Positions 2,890 to 21,910 of a stretch of 35,826 nucleotides of DNA are shown one piece after another (the first letter of the stretch is position 1; each line of letters begins with the position of its first letter). The position numbers and the translations under genes were made by a program. The DNA is taken from positions 1 through 35,826 of the forward strand of contig JAJYBC010000004.1 in the NCBI GenBank assembly GCA_021779255.1, written 5' to 3'. A model generated the notes under the pieces. The model did not search any database. It saw only the letters and a program-made list of their open reading frames with translations, and was not told the DNA's origin. Origin of the DNA: a bacterium (GTDB lineage Bacteria > Patescibacteriota > Minisyncoccia > CAIUEV01).

Positions 2890-3411
2890 TTATTCTTCGG
2901 TAGCTGTTTTCTCTGTACAGCTGTTATTTTCCTCAGCATTCTCTTCTATTGGTGGATTATCGGCTGAATATTTAATGGGGTCAACGCATTCTTCACCATT
3001 GGTAGCAGTCTCCGGGCTACAATAAATGTATTCACATTCAGCTTCACCTTCCTCACAAGAAAGTTTGGCCGGACATTCGTCTTTTTGCGCGTTGCAAAAA
3101 GGAATGTTTTTGGCGTTTTTATGAATTAACTTATAATAACTGGTTTGTTCTGCCGGATCTTTAGAGCAAGTGGTATCTTGTTCTGGATCACAAGTGTAAA
3201 TAAAACAAGCCTCCGTGTAGGGATCACAATCTTGCTCGGCGGAAATAATATAATCTTTGTTGATGATGATCCGCCAAAAAGTTAAAGAAACGGAACCGAT
3301 GAGAAGTAAAGAAAAAATAATTAAAAACAACTTACTTGCTAGCGGAGAGTGATTAAGCTTATTAATTTTTTGCCGATAAGTTTCTTTAAATGGGATTTTA
3401 TTATTGATCAT
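2890..3411 (-). CDS. Single-TM Cys-rich extracellular hypothetical protein
   Basis: N-terminal TM 'LFLIIFSLLLIGSVSLTFW' followed by an acidic, Cys-rich tail. Confidence 0.65.
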   Translation of the reverse strand: MINNKIPFKETYRQKINKLNHSPLASKLFLIIFSLLLIGSVSLTFWRIIINKDYIISAEQDCDPYTEACFIYTCDPEQDTTCSKDPAEQTSYYKLIHKNAKNIPFCNAQKDECPAKLSCEEGEAECEYIYCSPETATNGEECVDPIKYSADNPPIEENAEENNSCTEKTATEE

Positions 3412-3459
3412 TTTTGTTTTTTGAAAAATTACAAAAAGCGACTGACTTGGTTAAAAAAA

Positions 3460-4461
3460 CTAGGATAAACCGATTTTTTTCTTTACATCAGATAATGTTT
3501 TAAGGGCTATCTTTTCTACTTTTTTAGTGCCTCGATTTAAAATTTCTTGTAATAATTTCTCGTCTTTAACAATTTTTTGATATTGTTCTTGAATAGGCGA
3601 TAATTCAGCTATAATAGCCTCTGAGACTTCATTTTTTAAAAAACCGTAACCTTTGTCAGTGAGTAATTTTTCTATTACAGATTGACTTTTGCCGGAAAAA
3701 ATTTGATAGAGAGTTAACAAATTTTTTATACCGAGTGAAGCTTTTTTGAAAAGCAACTCGTTTTTATTGTCAGTTACGGCTCGCGCTATTTTTCGACGAA
3801 TAATTTCCGGCCTGTCGGAAAGAAAAATAGCGTGGTCGGCTTTTTGAGAAGCGATACTTTTGCTCATTTTTTGAGTTGGATCGTCTAAGCCCATAATGCG
3901 AGCACCTTCTTGGCGGATAAGGGAACGGGGGAGTCTGAAAGTTTGACCAAAGATAGAATTAAATCTTTTGGCAATATCCCGAGCAATTTCCACGTGTTGT
4001 TTTTGATCGTCGCCAACTGGGACTAAATCAGTCTGATAGAGTAAAATATCGGCTGCCATTAGAACAGGGTAATTGAGTAATCCGGCGCCAACGCTTTGCC
4101 GATTTTTGGCTTTGCTTTTGTATTGAGTCATCTTTTCCAACCAACTAACAGGAGTAATGCAATTAAGAATCCAAGCTAATTCGGTGTGAGCGGGGACTGT
4201 CGATTGAACAAAAATAGCTGATTTTTTTGGGTCAAGGCCACAAGCCAAATAAAGCGCCACGGTCTGTTTTATCTGCTTTTTGAAATCGACCGGCTTGATG
4301 GCTTCTGGGATAGTAATAGCGTGTAGATCAACGACGCAAAAAATATTGTCGTATAAATCTTGATTTTTGGCCCAAACCTTAAGAGCGCCAATATAATTGC
4401 CGATATGTAGATCGCCAGTAGGTTGAATGCCAGAAAAAACTCGTAATTTTGGTTTAGTCAT
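3460..4461 (-). CDS. trpS: Tryptophanyl-tRNA synthetase
   Basis: 'FSGIQPTGDLHIGNYIGAL' HIGH region; 'KMSKS' motif; 333 aa. Confidence 0.96.
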   Translation of the reverse strand: MTKPKLRVFSGIQPTGDLHIGNYIGALKVWAKNQDLYDNIFCVVDLHAITIPEAIKPVDFKKQIKQTVALYLACGLDPKKSAIFVQSTVPAHTELAWILNCITPVSWLEKMTQYKSKAKNRQSVGAGLLNYPVLMAADILLYQTDLVPVGDDQKQHVEIARDIAKRFNSIFGQTFRLPRSLIRQEGARIMGLDDPTQKMSKSIASQKADHAIFLSDRPEIIRRKIARAVTDNKNELLFKKASLGIKNLLTLYQIFSGKSQSVIEKLLTDKGYGFLKNEVSEAIIAELSPIQEQYQKIVKDEKLLQEILNRGTKKVEKIALKTLSDVKKKIGLS

Positions 4462-4629: not shown

Positions 4630-5232
4630 CTACCTGTCAACTAATTTAATGCTGAGATTTCGGCCATTGCGGTAATTATTTTGAGCGATGCCAAAATTGG
4701 CTATTCTTTCTTCTCCCCAGTAAAAACCGCCACTTCTAGTTGAAATTATCTTCAAATAAAAATCTTTGGAGACAAAAAGATGTCCACCTATGATACCCAA
4801 GTTTTTGCCACAACCGGGAGCCCATTCCCAGTTGAAAAGAGCGTTACTTTCAGAGAAATCGGTCTCCAAAGGGGAAAATAAAAGAATTCGAACGGCGTAA
4901 TGTGTGTAGTTGTGAATATTGATAGTAAATAACTCTTCGCAACCACCGCCATGCCGATTACAACCTTTGTAAGCTCGATTGCGAGCCTTATCGAAGGAAC
5001 TGTTTGACCCCCATCCAGTAGCTCCCGTAAGGATATTTCCAAAGACTACTCCGTAATGATAACACATCTCAGACCGGTCATTTTCAATAAATTTAGCGAT
5101 ATACTCCAATTTTCCTCTAATTCTATCGCGATTTTCTTGATCATTTTCGGCAATAGCATTTTCTAGCCATAGTCCACCGAAAATTATCACGAGCAGTAAA
5201 ATTGCCGATAAAAATGTCGCTTTTTTCTTCAT
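4630..5232 (-). CDS. Secreted hypothetical protein with DUF4189-like flavour
   Basis: Signal peptide/TM 'FLSAILLLVIIFGGLWL'; 'GWGSNSSFDKARNRAYKGCNRHGGGC'. Confidence 0.5.
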   Translation of the reverse strand: MKKKATFLSAILLLVIIFGGLWLENAIAENDQENRDRIRGKLEYIAKFIENDRSEMCYHYGVVFGNILTGATGWGSNSSFDKARNRAYKGCNRHGGGCEELFTINIHNYTHYAVRILLFSPLETDFSESNALFNWEWAPGCGKNLGIIGGHLFVSKDFYLKIISTRSGGFYWGEERIANFGIAQNNYRNGRNLSIKLVDR

Positions 5233-5419: not shown

Positions 5420-5451
5420 TGTCAATAGCGAAATATTAAAGAATCCTCAAC
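5420..5451 (-). promoter_or_regulatory. Repeat P copy 1: promoter-like element with TTGACA -35
   Basis: Minus sense GTTGAGGATTCTTTAATATTTCGCTATTGACA; homologous to five other P copies. Confidence 0.65.
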
Positions 5452-5477
5452 ATTTTGAAAAAACCAAAAAAACTTTC

Positions 5478-5564
5478 AGAAACCGGCTAAAACGCTTGAC
5501 AAAAGCGTTCTTTTCTAGATAATAAAGGGTTGCGATCAAGGAGGGAAATCGCAACCAAAAGCGA
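5478..5564 (+). promoter_or_regulatory. Repeat C copy 1: promoter, operator-like palindrome and hairpin leader
   Basis: AACGCT-TGACAAA-AGCGTT overlaps the -35 TTGACA; GATAAT -10; GGTTGCGAT..ATCGCAACC hairpin with AAGGAGGG in its loop; 85/87 match to 7386-7472. Confidence 0.8.
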
Positions 5565-5587
5565 AGAAACTTAACAGGGAGAAGTAG

Positions 5588-8866: not shown

Positions 8867-8980
8867 AAAAGATAAAACAAAAAAATAAATGGCCACTTAT
8901 GTGACGGTAATTTATTTTAGTACAAAAGAAAAAAACACGCCATGAGGTAGCTGGCAGAAAATTTGAGCGTACTTAACTTA

Positions 8981-9043
8981 TAAAACAAAAAATCCGTTTT
9001 TACGCGGATTCTTTGACAGAACTCAACTTAGTACAAGATTCTG
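8981..9043 (-). repeat. Repeat A copy 2
   Basis: taaaacaaaaaatccgtttttacgcggattctttgacagaactcaacttagtacaagattctg. Confidence 0.9.
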
Positions 9044-10500: not shown

Positions 10501-10532
10501 TAAAAAAATATTTTAAATTTATTGCTTAATAA

Positions 10533-10594
10533 AAAACAAAAAATCCGCTTTTGCGCGGATTCTTTGACAGAACTCAACTTAGTACAAGATTCTG
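10533..10594 (-). repeat. Repeat A copy 3
   Basis: aaaacaaaaaatccgcttttgcgcggattctttgacagaactcaacttagtacaagattctg. Confidence 0.9.
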
Positions 10595-10599
10595 GTTCG

Positions 10600-11199
10600 T
10601 CATCCACTTGGAAGTGGATCATTACTTGAGAAATTGTCAAATTTTTGTATTTTATATTTTGGAAAAATATTTTTTAAAGTAGTCATCTTAAAGAAAGAAT
10701 CAACCATCTTCTCTGTTTCTTTGTAGTCCAATTTTAATTTTTTTGCTTCATTATAAATTAATAAATGAATTAATTCGTGAGTAATAGTCTCATTTGCTTC
10801 TTTAATATCTTTATTGGTGGCTGTTCTCAAATCAAGGGTATTGGGATATTGAAATTGTCCCTGTGGTCCGTAGAAAGAAATGTAACAATTGTAGCTGCTT
10901 TTTATTTTTAATCCTAGATCTTCTAAAATTTTGAAAAGTAATTTCTCTTTTCCTCTCCACTCCTTTTCTATTTTAGTAGTCATCCCCGCATAAAGATCAT
11001 AACAATAAATTTTATCAAATTCTTTCGTTATTTCTGCAACAAAAAGTCTTTTTTTGTCTTTGTTTCGTTCATATATTTTAGCGTAGAATTTAGGTAAAAA
11101 AATAGGAAAATCATTATCAAGAAACCACTGATATTCTTCATAAAAATTCACCAATCTATTTTTTTCTTTAGCTTTTGAGTATAAAAATTGTATTTTCAT
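10600..11199 (-). CDS. Putative zinc metallopeptidase (HExxH, minigluzincin-like)
   Basis: 'ETITHELIHLLIYNEAKKLKLDYKETEKMVDSFF'. Confidence 0.65.
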   Translation of the reverse strand: MKIQFLYSKAKEKNRLVNFYEEYQWFLDNDFPIFLPKFYAKIYERNKDKKRLFVAEITKEFDKIYCYDLYAGMTTKIEKEWRGKEKLLFKILEDLGLKIKSSYNCYISFYGPQGQFQYPNTLDLRTATNKDIKEANETITHELIHLLIYNEAKKLKLDYKETEKMVDSFFKMTTLKNIFPKYKIQKFDNFSSNDPLPSG

Positions 11200-11235: not shown

Positions 11236-11279
11236 ATCGGTCAAGGCTTCATGTGAAATACATTTTTGCCTTGACCGAT
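11236..11279. terminator. Intrinsic terminator downstream of the radical SAM/PqqD pair
   Basis: 12-bp perfect stem atcggtcaaggc / gccttgaccgat. Confidence 0.75.
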
Positions 11280-11284
11280 AAGTT

Positions 11285-11542
11285 TCAAAAAAAATTTGAA
11301 TCATTCAATATTAATGCAATAGAGATAACCTCTTTTGATGGATTCTTTATCTTTGGAAAAGTATCTTTGACTAATTGCCCTATTTTTTTTAAGCTTTTTT
11401 TCCCTGTCATTTGATTAACAATAAAAGCTCCAACTTCGTTAAAAGTCAAGATTCCTTTACCTTGAAAAAAACCTATAAAATTATCGGTCTCTTGTCTGAT
11501 TTTAAAACGACAATTTATTTTAGGAATAAAATTTTCGTTCAT
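11285..11542 (-). CDS. PqqD-like RiPP recognition element protein
   Basis: 85 aa from internal ATG at 11542, overlapping the radical SAM stop (ATGA); 'GKGILTFNEVGAFIVNQMTGKKSLKKIGQLVKDTFP' matches the PqqD pattern. Confidence 0.75.
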   Translation of the reverse strand: MNENFIPKINCRFKIRQETDNFIGFFQGKGILTFNEVGAFIVNQMTGKKSLKKIGQLVKDTFPKIKNPSKEVISIALILNDSNFF

Positions 11543-12549
11543 GACAATCTCCTTTGTTTTTTTGAAATAAACTCGTCTGGAGCGTACAAACCACCATCGT
11601 AGCAAGAAGCGGAACACCCACCACCACAGAAGTCGTTGCATTTTCGGCATTTTATCGGCAACCATTTTAGAGATCGAAAGTGAGTTAATCGATTGACCCA
11701 TATTTCAGTCAAAGGAGTTTCTAATATATTGCCATAACTTCCTTTAGCAATAGAACAAGAGCGGATATTCCCTTTATGATCAACGTGCCCGAAACCTGTG
11801 CCTTGCCAACAGCTAATAACATAATCATGAAACTCAAAGGGTAGTAAGCAAAGAGGGAAAGAGTCGCCAAAACTGGCTCGAATACCTAATTTTACCCTTA
11901 TTTTTTTTAAAAGAGGAAATACTGACAAGTATTCTTTTAAAGAAAGTTTAGCTTTTTCCCAGTCTGACCTGGCTCGACCATAGGGAGTTAAGCGTCCTAC
12001 GTTGATTTCATCTATTTCTAAGTTATTTTCTTTTAGCCACAGGCAAGTATCGAAAACATGTCGATAATTATTTTTCGTTAAGGTGTAGAGAATAGAAATA
12101 CCGATATTATTTTCTATACAAGTTTTGATTCCATGGATAGCTGATTCGAACGATCCTTCTTTTTTTGTTATTTTATCATGAATCTCTTTCGTACCATGTA
12201 AGGATATGGCGCCACCAATAATTCTGTTTGCTGCTAATTTTTTAGCCACATCCTTGTCTATATGAGTTCCATTTGAAACAAAAGACAAGAAGAAATCCAG
12301 CGAATTGGCATATTCTAGGAGTTCTTGCCAGTAGGGATATACAAAAAATTCTCCTCCAAAAAATCTAATTTCAAAGACCTCTGCCTCGGCAAGTTTGTTT
12401 AAAATAGAAATTGTTTGATTCAACGGAGGATGACCTAAGATCTGAGAGTTTATTTCAGAATTAAAGCAGAATTCGCAAGCCAAATCGCATACTGGACTTA
12501 CTTCAAAATTTACCGAAAGAGGCGCCTTAAGGGATATTAACTCATTCAT
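11539..12549 (-). CDS. Radical SAM/SPASM peptide maturase
   Basis: CDLACEFCF (CxxxCxxC), 'FFGGEFFVYP', C-terminal cluster motif 'CRKCNDFCGGGCSASC'. Confidence 0.9.
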   Translation of the reverse strand: MNELISLKAPLSVNFEVSPVCDLACEFCFNSEINSQILGHPPLNQTISILNKLAEAEVFEIRFFGGEFFVYPYWQELLEYANSLDFFLSFVSNGTHIDKDVAKKLAANRIIGGAISLHGTKEIHDKITKKEGSFESAIHGIKTCIENNIGISILYTLTKNNYRHVFDTCLWLKENNLEIDEINVGRLTPYGRARSDWEKAKLSLKEYLSVFPLLKKIRVKLGIRASFGDSFPLCLLPFEFHDYVISCWQGTGFGHVDHKGNIRSCSIAKGSYGNILETPLTEIWVNRLTHFRSLKWLPIKCRKCNDFCGGGCSASCYDGGLYAPDEFISKKQRRLS

Positions 12550-12574
12550 TTTTCCTCCTTAATAAAGAGCTACT

Positions 12575-12603
12575 AGGGGTGAGTATAATTTTATATCACC
12601 CCT
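12575..12603 (-). terminator. Hairpin between the precursor peptide and the radical SAM gene; possible attenuator
   Basis: aggggtga...tcacccct, 8-bp stem with further AT pairing inside. Confidence 0.6.
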
Positions 12604-12619
12604 TAGATGAAGAATCCTT

Positions 12620-12748
12620 TTACTTACAGCAGCGACAAGTGCATTGTCCTGCACATTTAGCTGTGGTTGTTTCTGTGGGTGTAACTTTTGGGTAGTTGTT
12701 TTTTAGTATACTAAATCTTGCCACAGAAGCTTTTTTTGAATTTTTCAT
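12620..12748 (-). CDS. Putative Cys-rich RiPP precursor peptide, 42 aa (below ORF-track cutoff)
   Basis: MKNSKKASVARFSILKNNYPKVTPTETTTAKCAGQCTCRCCK*; AAAGGAAA Shine-Dalgarno-like site upstream; directly upstream of radical SAM/SPASM and PqqD-like genes. Confidence 0.8.
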   Translation of the reverse strand: MKNSKKASVARFSILKNNYPKVTPTETTTAKCAGQCTCRCCK

Positions 12749-12773
12749 TCCCGTTTCCTTTCTTTCTGGATTT

Positions 12774-12790
12774 GCGCTATTTTATAGCGC
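12774..12790 (-). promoter_or_regulatory. Palindrome in the precursor leader region
   Basis: gcgctattttatagcgc, 7-bp perfect arms. Confidence 0.5.
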
Positions 12791-12858
12791 ATTGATTGTT
12801 AGATTGTCTGTTAAGGTGCTGGTTGTCTTGTTTCTATTTCTAAACCCAATTTATATTT

Positions 12859-12890
12859 TGTCAATCACGAAATCTTAAATAATCCTCAAC
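12859..12890 (-). promoter_or_regulatory. Repeat P copy 2: promoter-like element upstream of the RiPP precursor
   Basis: Minus sense GTTGAGGATTATTTAAGATTTCGTGATTGACA. Confidence 0.65.
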
Positions 12891-13002
12891 TTTTCTAAGT
12901 GTTATGTATAATTTAGCATCGCATCTTTGTTTTTGCTTTTGGAAAATTTATGGTAAAATATTTTTATTAGGGAAGAGGACTAAAATTTTATTTGAAATTA
13001 AT

Positions 13003-13666: not shown

Positions 13667-15382
13667 TTGGATTACAATACGTTAGAAAATTTGGACGGAG
13701 GGTGTCTATCTGTTGCAAGCGATCCTTTAATTCTTTACTCTCACATTCCAGTAATCATAATTTCTTTACTGTTTGGCTTTTTTGTTTTGTTAAAAAGTAA
13801 AAAATTAATAACTGGAAAAATCTTGTTTTCTATTTGTTTGACTTATTCACTTTGGGCGATTTTTGATTTGATAGTTTGGACACAGTTTAGTTTTAATAGG
13901 TTATTGATTTTTCTTTGGGGATTTCAAGATATGCTAAGCGTTCTTTTATTTGTTTTGACATTATACTTCATTTATGTTTTTTTGGAGAAAAAAGATATCT
14001 CAATAGTAAAAAAATTATTTATATTCCTACCTATTTTGCCAGTTATTTTTCTTACTCCAACAAGACTAGGAGTGAATCTATTTTACACTAGTACTTGTGA
14101 AGCAGGAGAGAGTGATATATACATGAAATATCTTTTGTTTCTTCAGCTTTTTGTAAGTTTTTGGATAGTATCTCTTTTTATATCGAGATATAGAAAATGC
14201 TATGATTTTGATAACAAAAAACAGATAAAATTACTTGCCCTTGGCACAGGTTTTTATTTGTTAATGATATCCATTGTTGCTATTGCTACAAATGTATCAA
14301 ATAATTATTCTATAGAGCTCTATAGTCTGTTTAGCATAGTTCCTTTTTTGAGTATACTTTCATATTTGGTTATTAAATATCAGGCGTTTGATATTAAGGT
14401 AATTGCAGGGCAATTTTTAATTGTTTCACTGTGGATCGCGGTTTTTTCCCAATTTTTTATCGTACAGAGTAGCTTTAACTTATGGATAACAATCGTAGAA
14501 TTAGCTATTATTACTGTCTTGGGGTGGTTTTTGTTTCGGTCGGTCAAGCAGGAAGTCCAGACGGCGGAAGAGCTGGGGATTGCGTCTAATCGGTTGCAAG
14601 GCTTAAATAATAAATTGCGCGAGTTGGATCAAGCCAAATCCGAATTTATTTCCATCGCTTCACATCAATTGCGTACACCATTAACATCGATTAAAGGCTT
14701 TTCCTCACTCATCTTGGAAAATACTTTTGGCCGATTGCCGGCTAAAATTAAACAACCAATTGAAAATATCTTTGTGAATAACGAAAAACTGGTTCTATTG
14801 GTGGAAGATATGTTGAATGTTTCGCGTTTGGAAGCGGGCCGATTGCAGTATGATCTGGAGGAAACAGAGGTCTTGCCGTTGGTTAAAAAAACGGTGGATA
14901 ACTTGCGTCTTTATGCTAAAAGTAAAAAGTTAAAAATGCAACTACTTGAGTCGAAAGAAAAGTTGCCTTTAATTTTGGCGGACCAAAGAAAATTAGCGGA
15001 AATTATTGCTAATTTAATTGATAATGCTATTAAATATACCCCTCACGGACAGATTGAAATTATCGTGGAAAAATTTAAAAAACTACAAAAGGTGGGTATT
15101 GGCAAAAATCCGGGGATTTTTAACGGTAGCTGGATTAAAATTCAAGTCAAAGATACAGGCATTGGTATGACCAAAGAAGAGACAAAATCTATTTTTGAAA
15201 AATTTCAACAAGGTCCCGTTGACCAAAGAAACAGTTTACAAACGGTCGGTACGGGCTTGGGTGTTTTTATCTCGCGTCAAATGGCGGAGGCCATGAACGG
15301 TCATCTTTACGCCGAGAGCGCTGGGCTGGGGCGGGGAAGCGCCTTCATCTTGGAACTGCCAGGATTGAAGGGAAAAAGGTGA
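13667..15382 (+). CDS. Membrane sensor histidine kinase (TTG start)
   Basis: Multi-TM N-terminus; H-box 'FISIASHQLRTPLTSIKG', N-box 'NLIDNAIKYTP', 'DTGIGMTKEE', 'GTGLGVFISRQMAEAMNG'. Confidence 0.93.
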   Translation: MDYNTLENLDGGCLSVASDPLILYSHIPVIIISLLFGFFVLLKSKKLITGKILFSICLTYSLWAIFDLIVWTQFSFNRLLIFLWGFQDMLSVLLFVLTLYFIYVFLEKKDISIVKKLFIFLPILPVIFLTPTRLGVNLFYTSTCEAGESDIYMKYLLFLQLFVSFWIVSLFISRYRKCYDFDNKKQIKLLALGTGFYLLMISIVAIATNVSNNYSIELYSLFSIVPFLSILSYLVIKYQAFDIKVIAGQFLIVSLWIAVFSQFFIVQSSFNLWITIVELAIITVLGWFLFRSVKQEVQTAEELGIASNRLQGLNNKLRELDQAKSEFISIASHQLRTPLTSIKGFSSLILENTFGRLPAKIKQPIENIFVNNEKLVLLVEDMLNVSRLEAGRLQYDLEETEVLPLVKKTVDNLRLYAKSKKLKMQLLESKEKLPLILADQRKLAEIIANLIDNAIKYTPHGQIEIIVEKFKKLQKVGIGKNPGIFNGSWIKIQVKDTGIGMTKEETKSIFEKFQQGPVDQRNSLQTVGTGLGVFISRQMAEAMNGHLYAESAGLGRGSAFILELPGLKGKR

Positions 15383-15385
15383 GAA
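15306..15385 (+). repeat. Repeat B copy 1 (in the 3' end of the histidine kinase gene)
   Basis: 80 nt identical to 20326-20405. Confidence 0.95.
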
Positions 15386-15618: not shown

Positions 15619-16722
15619 ATGCTTAAGTGTCAGAGTAAAGAAGAAAAAAATTGGTTTTCGATTCAGTTAAAACCCGTTGGAAGCGCATGCAATATCAATT
15701 GCAGTTATTGTTACGTAAAACCCTTTCGAACCGATAGATTAAGTATAATGTCAGAGGAAGTATTGTCAAGAACGATAAAAAGTTGTTTAGAGTCATCTCT
15801 AAAACCAACATTCACTTGGCATGGAGGAGAGCCTCTTTTGGCGGGAAGCGAATTCTTCCTAAAAGCAACAAAAATAATGAGGATGTATCAAAAAAGGAAA
15901 ACACCAATTAAAAATATTCTTCAGACAAACGCAACACTAATTACCCCTTTGTTGGCAAATATTCTAAAAGAAAACAAATTCTCTGTTAGTGTCAGCTTAG
16001 ATGGTCCTGAAAAAATTCATGGGATTCATCGAGTTGACAATAAGGGAAAGAATACCTTTCATAAGGCTATGAAAGGTATTGATAACCTTGTTAAGGCTAA
16101 AATAGTTCCTTCTGTTGTTTGCACAGTTACTCAAGCAACATTAGCATACGCAGAAGAAGTTTTTGAGTTTTTAGTGAGTAAGGGTTTCAAACAGATAAAA
16201 TATAGCCCCGTATTTGATTCCTTTTCCGATAATTTTAGCATAACAAGTGATGAATGGTTTTTTTACTTAAAAAAAGTTTTTGATAAGTGGTTAGAGATTG
16301 CCAATCCAGAGATACATATTAGAGAGCTTGATGAGGTTATCGTTTGGATTCAGAAGGAAAAGATATCACTTTGTTCCGCTGATAAAACTTGCTTAAACTG
16401 GGTATCTGTTGATCCAAAGGGGGATCTTTATCCTTGTGAATATTTAAGATCGACTTACTCCCATGGTAATATTTTGTCGCTGGATTTGATCGATATTGTA
16501 AGAAAACCAACGTTTCTTAAATTCAAAAAAAGTTTTTATATAGTACCTAGAAAATGTCGAGACTGTGAATTTTATTTATTCTGTGGAAACGGTTGCCCAG
16601 CTACGAGAGTCTGCGATGGAAAATTATCACATAGTGGAGTATATGTTTATTGCGATGAAAGAAAAAAGCTATATCTTTATATAAAGAAAGTTTTCGAGAA
16701 AGAGCTTTGCTCTGGTTTGTAA
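15619..16722 (+). CDS. Radical SAM/SPASM maturase (anSME/GrrM/FxsB-like group)
   Basis: 'KPVGSACNINCSYCYVKPFR', 'FTWHGGEPLLAG', 'SLDGPEKIHGIHRVDNKGKNTF', C-terminal 'CRDCEFYLFCGNGCP'. Confidence 0.9.
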   Translation: MLKCQSKEEKNWFSIQLKPVGSACNINCSYCYVKPFRTDRLSIMSEEVLSRTIKSCLESSLKPTFTWHGGEPLLAGSEFFLKATKIMRMYQKRKTPIKNILQTNATLITPLLANILKENKFSVSVSLDGPEKIHGIHRVDNKGKNTFHKAMKGIDNLVKAKIVPSVVCTVTQATLAYAEEVFEFLVSKGFKQIKYSPVFDSFSDNFSITSDEWFFYLKKVFDKWLEIANPEIHIRELDEVIVWIQKEKISLCSADKTCLNWVSVDPKGDLYPCEYLRSTYSHGNILSLDLIDIVRKPTFLKFKKSFYIVPRKCRDCEFYLFCGNGCPATRVCDGKLSHSGVYVYCDERKKLYLYIKKVFEKELCSGL

Positions 16723-16746
16723 GGTTTAAAGAAAGGAGGGAAAGTC

Positions 16747-16911
16747 ATGAATAAGCGTATGTTTATTCTTCGTGTTTTGAAAGATATTGTGGATAAAACC
16801 ACAAAACTTGATGTTGAAGATTGGCGCGGTTCAGGCTATAATTGGATAAAATGCCAGAGTCAAAACTTAATAGCTGGAGCTGGTCAAAACTCAGATCAAA
16901 CAAACCCCTAG
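16747..16911 (+). CDS. Small peptide, 54 aa; candidate radical SAM substrate
   Basis: MNKRMFILRVLKDIVDKTTKLDVEDWRGSGYNWIKCQSQNLIAGAGQNSDQTNP*; strong Shine-Dalgarno aaaggaggg; 24 nt after the radical SAM stop. Confidence 0.7.
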   Translation: MNKRMFILRVLKDIVDKTTKLDVEDWRGSGYNWIKCQSQNLIAGAGQNSDQTNP

Positions 16912-17922: not shown

Positions 17923-17999
17923 ACGCCGAGAGTACCGGGCTGGGGCGGGGAAGCGCCTTCATCTTGGAACTGCCAGGATTGAAGGGAAAAAGGTGAGAA
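17923..17999 (+). repeat. Repeat B copy 2
   Basis: acgccgagagtaccgggctggggcggggaagcgccttcatc... to gtgagaa. Confidence 0.95.
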
Positions 18000-18105: not shown

Positions 18106-19356
18106 ATGACCAGTAAACTTTTTTTAAAGAAAAAACCGACTTTGCAAGATTTGCAACAATATGTAAGGGCTTTAAATAAAGAAAGGGGGTTCAAAAATAC
18201 TTTAAAAAGTAGTTTTGTTCATCTAGTAAGCGAAGTTGGGGAGCTAGCTAAAGAATTTCAAAAAAGCGATCAAAATAAGAAAGAAATAGGCTTTGAAATT
18301 GTAGATATTCTCATCTTTCTTCTGGATTTGGCTAACCAAAATAATGTTGATTTAGAAAAAGCTTTTCGAGAGAAAGAAGAAATAAATAAAAAGCGTCCAT
18401 GGAGAGAAATAGAAAACAAAGAGCTTCCTGCTAAAAATGAACTCATAAAATTTAATTCTAAAAATCATTTTTTTAACATATCTAATGATAAAATTCCTTT
18501 TCAAGAAATAGTCAAAAAGACAAAAGTTCCTTTGTCAGTTATCTTGCAAATAACAAGAGAATGTAATTCAAATTGTATTTTTTGTAGCGAAAAAGGAAAT
18601 AAAATACCCGACCCGACATTAGAAGAATTAAGAATAATAAAAAATAATCTAAGAGGAGTTCGTCGTGTTTTTCTTTCAGGCGGGGAGCCTCTCCTAAGAA
18701 AAGATTTATTGGAAATTGTAAATTTATTTAAAGACGAATTTATTATAGGTCTTCCTACGAATGCTATTCCCAACAAAGAATTAGCTAAAAAATTATATGG
18801 AAAAATAGCTTTTGTAAATGTTGGTTTAGAGGGACCCAGATCCATTACAAATAAAGTAAGGGGTGATTATGACAAAATCATGTCAGGGATTTTAGCTTTT
18901 AAAAAAGCTGGGATTCCGATATCTCTTACGGCTGTTGTCTTAAAAAGTACTATTAAGACATTAAAACATACTTGCCAAATTGCCGATGTTCTAGAGGCTG
19001 GAAAGCTGAAACTTATTATGCCTATTAGAAAAGGGAATGCATTGAATATGAAAGAAGAAGAATTTATCTCTAACGAAGATGCAAAAAAATTATATTCTTT
19101 CTTAATTTTAGAGAAAGAAAAGTGTGGATGGAAAATTCCTATAAGAATGACGCTCTGGGAACCAAAAAACGAAGGTTATTCAATACTAGTTTATCCAAAC
19201 GGAGATACTTTTGCATGGCCAGTCTACAAAGAAAAAGACAAAGTTAGTTATTTAGGTAATTTAAAAAAAATGACTATTGAAAATATCTGGAAAAGGTACC
19301 CATACAAAGAAAACCATCTGGCAAAGTACCTCGGAAAAAGTATAAAAACTCTATGA
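18106..19356 (+). CDS. MazG-like domain fused to a radical SAM domain
   Basis: N-term 'HLVSEVGELAKEFQKS...EIVDILIFLLDLANQNNVDLEKAF'; C-term radical SAM 'ITRECNSNCIFCSEKG', 'VFLSGGEPLLRKDL'. Confidence 0.85.
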   Translation: MTSKLFLKKKPTLQDLQQYVRALNKERGFKNTLKSSFVHLVSEVGELAKEFQKSDQNKKEIGFEIVDILIFLLDLANQNNVDLEKAFREKEEINKKRPWREIENKELPAKNELIKFNSKNHFFNISNDKIPFQEIVKKTKVPLSVILQITRECNSNCIFCSEKGNKIPDPTLEELRIIKNNLRGVRRVFLSGGEPLLRKDLLEIVNLFKDEFIIGLPTNAIPNKELAKKLYGKIAFVNVGLEGPRSITNKVRGDYDKIMSGILAFKKAGIPISLTAVVLKSTIKTLKHTCQIADVLEAGKLKLIMPIRKGNALNMKEEEFISNEDAKKLYSFLILEKEKCGWKIPIRMTLWEPKNEGYSILVYPNGDTFAWPVYKEKDKVSYLGNLKKMTIENIWKRYPYKENHLAKYLGKSIKTL

Positions 19357-20102
19357 TTACAAAAGAAAAAAATTTATTCTTTCTTCAGAAGAAAAAAAAT
19401 AAAATTGTGTCTTTTGATGTTGAATGGACAAAAAACTACAGAATCAAAAAAGGTAATAAGTCTTTTTGTTTTTCTTTGGTTTTTTTTGATAATTTTTCTA
19501 AGAAGCTAGTTAAAGAAGAAGACATTCGCTTTGGATTTCAAATGGCATATGCTCAAAATTTATTAGAAATAAAAAAAATAACAACGTTGGCGGAAGAAAA
19601 ATTATCTTTTTTTTTGAAAAATAATTTTTTATTTATTGGTCACCAATTATGTAGTGATCTTAGTGTCTTAAGAGCTTATGGTTCACAAAGTCACAATTTG
19701 ATTAAGCTACAAAAAATATGGAAAAGAAGAAAATCACCTAATTACTCGAGGTTATTTGACTCAAGATTTGATATAAAAACCTTGAAAAATAAAAGTCGAA
19801 GGTTAGTCGATGTTTGTGAAGAATTAAACTTGATTGTCACACAACCAGAATTGAAAGGATCTTCGATGACTTCTATGCAAAATAATTTTTATAATACGAA
19901 AGAAAAACTACTTTACGAAAAGATAGCCGTACTAAACATCAGACACTCTCTATCGACTGGATTAATTTATTTACTATTAACAAAAAAAATAAAATGGTTA
20001 AGAAAAATAAATGTCAACCAGATTCTCTATAATAATATTAAAGATGATTTTTCCTATATCAATTCTCCGGAATTTATTCAACTATTAGATGAAAAACAAT
20101 AA
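19353..20102 (+). CDS. Putative DEDD-type (RNase H-like) 3'-5' exonuclease, divergent
   Basis: 'KIVSFDVEWT' ExoI-like, 'FLFIGHQLCSDLSVLRAYG' ExoII-like; overlaps upstream stop by ATGA; final catalytic Asp not obvious. Confidence 0.5.
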   Translation: MITKEKNLFFLQKKKNKIVSFDVEWTKNYRIKKGNKSFCFSLVFFDNFSKKLVKEEDIRFGFQMAYAQNLLEIKKITTLAEEKLSFFLKNNFLFIGHQLCSDLSVLRAYGSQSHNLIKLQKIWKRRKSPNYSRLFDSRFDIKTLKNKSRRLVDVCEELNLIVTQPELKGSSMTSMQNNFYNTKEKLLYEKIAVLNIRHSLSTGLIYLLLTKKIKWLRKINVNQILYNNIKDDFSYINSPEFIQLLDEKQ

Positions 20103-21707: not shown

Positions 21708-21780
21708 GCCGAGAGCGCTGGGCTGGGGCGGGGAAGCGCCTTCATCTTGGAACTGCCAGGATTGAAGGGAAAAAGGTGAG
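21708..21780 (+). repeat. Repeat B copy 4
   Basis: 73 nt identical to the corresponding part of copy 1. Confidence 0.95.
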
Positions 21781-21806
21781 GATTATTTAATATTTCACGG
21801 TTGATA
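21777..21806 (+). promoter_or_regulatory. Repeat P copy 6: promoter-like element upstream of the tRNA-like gene
   Basis: gtgaggattatttaatatttcacggttgata; TATTAT at suitable spacing. Confidence 0.6.
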
Positions 21807-21837: not shown

Positions 21838-21910
21838 TGTGGGGGTAGCTTGGTGCAGACCTTGGCTCGTCAACCATAGGTCTGGGAGTTCGATTCTCCC
21901 TATCTCCACA
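21838..21910 (+). tRNA. tRNA-like cloverleaf with non-canonical D and anticodon arms
   Basis: tgtgggggta/tatctccaca 10-bp stem; canonical T-arm gggagTTCGATTctccc; agacc...ggtct arm; mini D-arm gcttggtgc. Confidence 0.45.

Follow-up and report, generated by a model that had tools for sequence, protein, structure and literature searches.

The window, as the whole analysed stretch of 35,826 nucleotides from a patescibacterial contig is called here, most probably carries a four-gene RiPP cassette, A-B-C-D, in which the PqqD-like protein C would present the precursor peptide A, the radical SAM/SPASM enzyme B would modify the core of A, and the HExxH protein D would trim its leader. Gene content, gene order, the co-inheritance of the A–D parts, purifying selection on A and a natural fusion of B to C are direct observations. 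The cassette is present in eight widely separated genomes of Patescibacteria, including that of the window, and its enzymes are intact in seven of them. The RiPP-type layout given in a preliminary description of this DNA (a small Cys-rich peptide, a radical SAM/SPASM gene and a PqqD-like gene) thus recurs in orthologous loci of other Patescibacteria; its left end at 11285, however, had to be moved, since the cassette reaches further and a fourth gene, D (10600–11199, minus strand), had been missed.

Gene A (12620–12748, minus strand) encodes a Cys-rich precursor of 42 residues, MKNSKKASVARFSILKNNYPKVTPTETTTAKCAGQCTCRCCK, with the leader motif VARFSILK and the core KCAGQCTCRCCK. The translation is exactly that quoted previously, including the five cysteines in the last 12 residues, and the Shine-Dalgarno-like site mentioned there is the AAGGA at 12756–12760 of the minus strand, 7–11 nt upstream, as read from the sequence. 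Small open reading frames are common by chance and A matches no Pfam or NCBIfam family, so that a chance frame, with B as an orphan radical SAM enzyme next to it, had to be considered. However, among stop-terminated frames of at least 25 codons with at least five cysteines in the last 12 residues, one occurs in the window, where Markov copies have 0.017 on average, the Cys-rich terminus of A thus being more than chance. Moreover, orthologues of A occur in six further genomes (G248, G423, G393, G564, G602 and G967), where the core hardly varies and third positions change silently. A back-translated pattern of the core, run against two class samples (384 and 381 genomes), matched in four genomes besides that of the window, i.e. 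the new loci of G564, G602 and G967 together with G248, whereas the reversed control pattern gave 0 matches in both samples. Orthologues and control searches rule out the chance frame, and, judged by this conservation, the 42-aa ORF is a real gene.

Alignment of the seven intact peptides revealed the common core K/R-C-x-G-[Q/E]-C-T-C-[R/K]-C-C-K, in which C32, G34, C36, T37, C38, C40, C41 and K42 are invariant, position 35 is Q or E and position 39 is R or K; in the leader, K6, V9 and F12 are invariant. Variation in the DNA of A is mostly synonymous: the last 12 codons of the window's gene show 6 synonymous and no non-synonymous differences from those of G423, and 7 and 1, respectively, from those of G248. 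The Thr-rich stretch TPTETTT, earlier placed near the cleavage region, is indeed found in the window's peptide but is not shared, its relatives mostly having TPMRxAT or KKMRLxx there. Known RREs bind the leaders of their precursor peptides and, by analogy, the leader strand V-A-[K/R]-F-S-[V/I]-L is likely the binding strand for C.

Five genomes (the window's own, G248, G423, G564 and G602) show the order A-B-C-D. In G967, A is followed by a fused B–C protein of 460 residues (L113:3378-4760) and then by D. The G424 locus reads B-C-D, its contig starting inside the peptide gene, and in G393, where B and C are deleted, A and D remain together with a short piece from the SPASM end of B. Gene D therefore lies downstream in 8/8 loci, as G424 has B-C-D, G393 keeps D and the other six are complete. 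A conserved Cys-rich small ORF was sought beside the six orthologous maturases outside the window's genome, the preliminary description having made its reading depend on one: an intact peptide with the shared core lies directly upstream in five of them (G248, G423, G564, G602 and G967), while at the sixth, in G424, the core is recognisable but apparently shifted by one base at the contig start, which may reflect decay or an assembly error. A search of the phylum sample with B returned one orthologue, 74% identical, in G248; G393 was found by a search with gene D; and the contig scan assigned G248 to a Falkowbacteria MAG (L053), G424 to Wolfebacteria (L054) and G423 to Peregrinibacteria (L055). 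The start of B in G423 falls inside a scaffold N-run; GC-rich oxidoreductase genes (L055:1-2013) are joined to the cassette via an N-run, a possible scaffolding error in this MAG. In G602, a transposase-like gene (L112:5672-6661) lies immediately upstream of, and divergent from, the gene for the peptide.

Gene B (11539–12549, minus strand), preceded by the Shine-Dalgarno sequence AAGGAGG and following A as previously described, encodes 336 residues with the features of a radical SAM/SPASM peptide maturase: the motif CX3CX2C at residues 21–28, GGE at residues 65–67, and matches to the Pfam domains Radical_SAM (5.9e-19) and SPASM (3e-5), both over the gathering score. Seven SPASM cysteines are seen in the window's B, of which 247, 265, 301, 304, 308 and 312 are invariant, while 316 is variable, being Arg or Gln in four orthologues; loss of this last cysteine in L054 is not read as decay, since it is missing from G564, G602 and G967 as well. 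Among solved structures, the best relatives of B include SkfB, SuiB and CteB, which are peptide maturases, SkfB and CteB being thioether makers. Against the NCBIfam peptide-maturase families, including those for sactipeptides and ranthipeptides, B passes no cut-off and stays far below every one (at best 97 bits vs 650), its highest scores being to WgkB and to the cofactor-type SPASM enzymes NirJ/AhbD/MftC. B very likely modifies the A peptide.

The ATG of gene C (11285–11542, minus strand, 85 aa) overlaps the stop codon of B as ATGA, just as described before, and a PqqD-like partner is found in all six orthologous maturase loci, once (G967) fused to the maturase. All seven C members match PF05402 (PqqD), the best at 8.7e-7; the window's own C does so at 0.0012, which falls short of the gathering score (19.6 vs 23.4). 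The AF2 model of C is weak (pLDDT 54) and found no fold match with Foldseek, its predicted strands and helices following a PqqD-like order. The assignment of C as the leader-binding partner is supported by these sequence relationships, and the strongest argument for C serving B is its fusion to B in G967.

Gene D encodes a zincin-like protein of 199 residues in which H141, E142, H145 and E163 are invariant among the eight D proteins, the invariant Glu lying 18 residues past the second His, as in gluzincin peptidases. D thus has the HExxH-plus-Glu signature of gluzincin-type zincins. Its AlphaFold2 model (pLDDT 88.9) gave no significant match in the fold search of solved structures, the nearest being M1 metallopeptidases and YbeY, and D is accordingly placed in no particular peptidase family; the weak sequence matches are to SprT-like/zinc peptidases. 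D is the best candidate for a leader peptidase in the cassette, and this putative role is held to be probable. HEXXH proteins in RiPP clusters that were once annotated as peptidases have proved to be ketoglutarate oxygenases (PMC12636437), and by that precedent D might be an iron/alpha-ketoglutarate enzyme acting on the peptide by hydroxylation or oxidative cleavage. This is considered unlikely, however: the eight D proteins gave 0 matches to the mod_HExxH (alpha-ketoglutarate HEXXH hydroxylase) family of NCBIfam at E 0.1, and both the peptidase-leaning matches, weak in sequence and not significant in fold, and the gluzincin-like Glu point the other way.

It would be about equally improbable that D is a self-protection protein or an unrelated passenger. 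D does have a promoter-like box of its own behind a terminator-like hairpin, it survives in G393 despite the deletion of B and C, and distant homologues (L068–L071) stand without radical SAM neighbours; yet D follows the cassette in every locus, and in L002, L022/L065 and L066 its homologues adjoin unrelated Cys-rich peptides and other radical SAM genes. Such Cys-rich peptides, e.g. RCSFCECKCDCTYCPCSVCKI, were seen at L022:3501-3662 and 2985-3452 (minus strand) and at L066:1226-2124 (plus strand). Leader trimming is the putative role given to D below. The last residues of the window's D differ from those of all orthologues, and a 65-nt direct repeat of 95% identity (8979–9043 and 10530–10594) ends near the 3' end of the gene; D may therefore have been re-ended by recombination.

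The intergenic regions of the cassette are structured. The hairpin formerly reported after A was confirmed as a stem-loop at 12575–12603 (minus strand), and a strong hairpin occupies the A–B gap in 5/5 loci folded, although the sequences are unrelated. Between C and D, a terminator-like hairpin with a folding energy z of -6.5 is followed by a T-rich run (11236–11279, minus strand); a hairpin is found in this gap in 8/8 loci and is terminator-like in most. A TATAAT/TACAAT-like box stands just ahead of the ATG of D in the window, and a TATAAT-like one in most loci. From these elements it is likely that D is transcribed separately and, because of the hairpin behind A, that the precursor is made in excess over the enzyme. 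The region upstream of A (12815–12900, minus strand) contains TTGACA (12864–12859) and presumably acts as the promoter; part of it (GAGGATTATTTAA...TTGACA) is repeated in the window ahead of two further radical SAM genes. A further repeat (15309–15385, 17923–17999 and 21711–21790) comprises the 3' end of a histidine kinase gene and a downstream promoter-like stretch, copied before other genes.

The maturases of the window, L054, L021 and L055 group in a single clade (100/99), and the fused radical SAM–RRE proteins of other Patescibacteria fall outside it. Those of G248 and G423 are 91% identical, even though the two genomes belong to different candidate phyla in NCBI naming (Falkowbacteria and Peregrinibacteria). 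In G248, the cassette lies between 150-nt inverted repeats that are unique within that genome and that, like the L055 flanks, fold as attC-like TAAC...GTTA hairpins. Such hairpins flank the L021 and L055 cassettes, with core boxes only partly of consensus type, and stand beside small gene units at L055:2104-2200, 4650-4747 and 5445-5565, L021:971-1055 and 3492-3576, L100:399-483 and L105:6750-6876. With a covariance model of four of these sites, one further, independent site was detected in G424 (82 bits), along with weaker ones in G423; the genomes of the window and of G393 had none, nor did the stretches of G564, G602 and G967. The 91% identical cassettes of Falkowbacteria and Peregrinibacteria and the hairpins flanking them suggest recent horizontal spread, a transfer that is well supported. 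Vertical inheritance within the family was rejected, as three other sampled genomes of the window's own family lack an orthologue of B, and so was a virus-borne origin, no close relative being found in viral contigs (L057 is a distant match of 33%). A canonical integron was likewise rejected: no canonical integrase accompanies the hairpins of L055, L021, L100 and L105, the window's genome (G000) gave no R1 match and IntI-model matches only under the cut-off, as did 14 control genomes, and no IntI passed the cut-off in the relatives either. The recombinase beside the attC-like site of L105 (5031-5906) was discarded as a candidate, since by eye it seems to lack the IntI-specific insert.

In about ten other loci of Patescibacteria (L002, L003, L022, L023, L025, L028, L029, L031, L033 and L038), the radical SAM protein has a C-terminal tail of RRE-like pattern; a short ORF, in most cases rich in Cys, follows it, and most of these loci also have an HExxH gene close by. 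Since hhalign of the PqqD set with the fused maturase of L002 gave no match, homology of these tails is argued from pattern likeness only. Systems of radical SAM enzymes and Cys-rich peptides appear to recur across Patescibacteria as an accessory trait. Near a radical SAM gene in L005, an 80-aa ORF (2952-3194) includes a hydrophobic segment and has CSSCASCDGGDGGGGGCGSAGCS as its tail. The window itself holds a second candidate RiPP operon (15619–16911, plus strand), in which a radical SAM/SPASM gene of anSME/GrrM-like type (2e-73 to TIGR03942, under the cut-off) precedes by 25 nt a 54-aa ORF (16747–16911) that has AAAGGAGGG upstream and a terminator-like hairpin behind it; its peptide contains DWRGSGYNW and had no convincing homologue among 141 relatives. 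Further along (18106–20102, plus strand), a gene fusing a MazG-like domain to a radical SAM domain (416 aa) overlaps a second, exonuclease-like gene (249 aa). A tRNA-like sequence at 21838–21910 (plus strand) was called by neither ARAGORN nor Rfam at gathering score.

The proposed pathway would begin with A, made in excess by means of the hairpin behind its gene. The PqqD-type RRE of C would bind the conserved leader strand xVA[K/R]FS[V/I]L[K/R] and present A to B, which would modify the C-terminal core KCxG[Q/E]CTC[R/K]CCK, and D, a separately transcribed cytoplasmic HExxH zincin, would then remove the leader. The five cysteines and the presence of SkfB and CteB among the closest solved relatives make Cys thioether cross-links the most likely product, a prediction offered with modest confidence. 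Neither an exporter nor an immunity gene was seen in the cassette loci, and the absence of an exporter leaves room for an intracellular product. Rather than a secreted antimicrobial, the product could then be a peptide-derived redox or metal-binding factor on the model of PQQ and mycofactocin, a proposal that bears on the product's role alone and is compatible with the four-gene reading. The metal-binding-like appearance of CTCRCC and the leaning of B towards NirJ/AhbD/MftC would fit such a factor, whereas the NCBIfam scores are far below cut-off and a patchy, horizontally moved distribution would be expected of an accessory trait more than of a core cofactor, so that the proposal is put forward tentatively. 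A more comprehensive version, in which an undescribed RiPP family of Patescibacteria travels as a ~2.3-kb pathway with its peptidase between attC-like hairpins and yields a cross-linked five-Cys product serving as an intracellular metal/redox factor, is speculative and, taken as a whole, rather unlikely.

The cassette is small, complete and recurrent in distant lineages, and the roles of its parts can be tested in the laboratory with natural variants, in which the RRE is fused or discrete, Q/E and R/K are swapped or the maturase is lost. It also offers a handle on the exchange of accessory traits among Patescibacteria, reduced and mostly uncultured organisms whose peptide natural products have hardly been described in the open literature searched, where no report specific to this peptide-maturase family was found.

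As B reaches no NCBIfam peptide-maturase family, the system seems to represent a new RiPP family built on a radical SAM enzyme and an RRE. Neither C nor D matches a named RiPP partner over threshold, and none of the SCIFF/PapB and other named ranthipeptide models of NCBIfam is passed, nor does the precursor match any. The fused loci of other Patescibacteria (L003, L023, L025, L028, L031 and others) share the functions, the phylum and a nearby HExxH gene; however, their RRE-like tail is within the maturase, their peptide lies downstream and is unrelated in sequence, and their clade is separate from B. The WgkABC cluster likewise combines a precursor, a SPASM maturase and a discrete PqqD-related protein, and B and C match the WgkB and WgkC models, but at 97 vs 650 bits and 16 vs 110 bits, respectively, and the core of A lacks W-G-K. 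PqqA-PqqE-PqqD and MftA-MftB-MftC resemble the cassette in placing a discrete PqqD-type chaperone beside a SPASM enzyme and a small peptide, and in having a pathway peptidase, yet the window's precursor is Cys-rich and not Glu/Tyr or Val-Tyr ended, and B scores 57 bits against the PqqE cut-off of 381 and 92 against the MftC cut-off of 265. The SkfB and CteB (SCIFF maturase) systems have in common with it a radical SAM/SPASM maturase, an RRE and an adjoining small Cys-containing precursor; in contrast, the window's B is short (336 aa), its RRE is discrete, its precursor carries five cysteines in a C-terminal CxGQCTCRCC core, its proteins miss the cut-offs of TIGR03974 and NF047865, and the SCIFF precursor model is unmatched. 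The cassette appears to work like a ranthipeptide/sactipeptide or PQQ-type pathway while lying outside the cut-offs of every named family.
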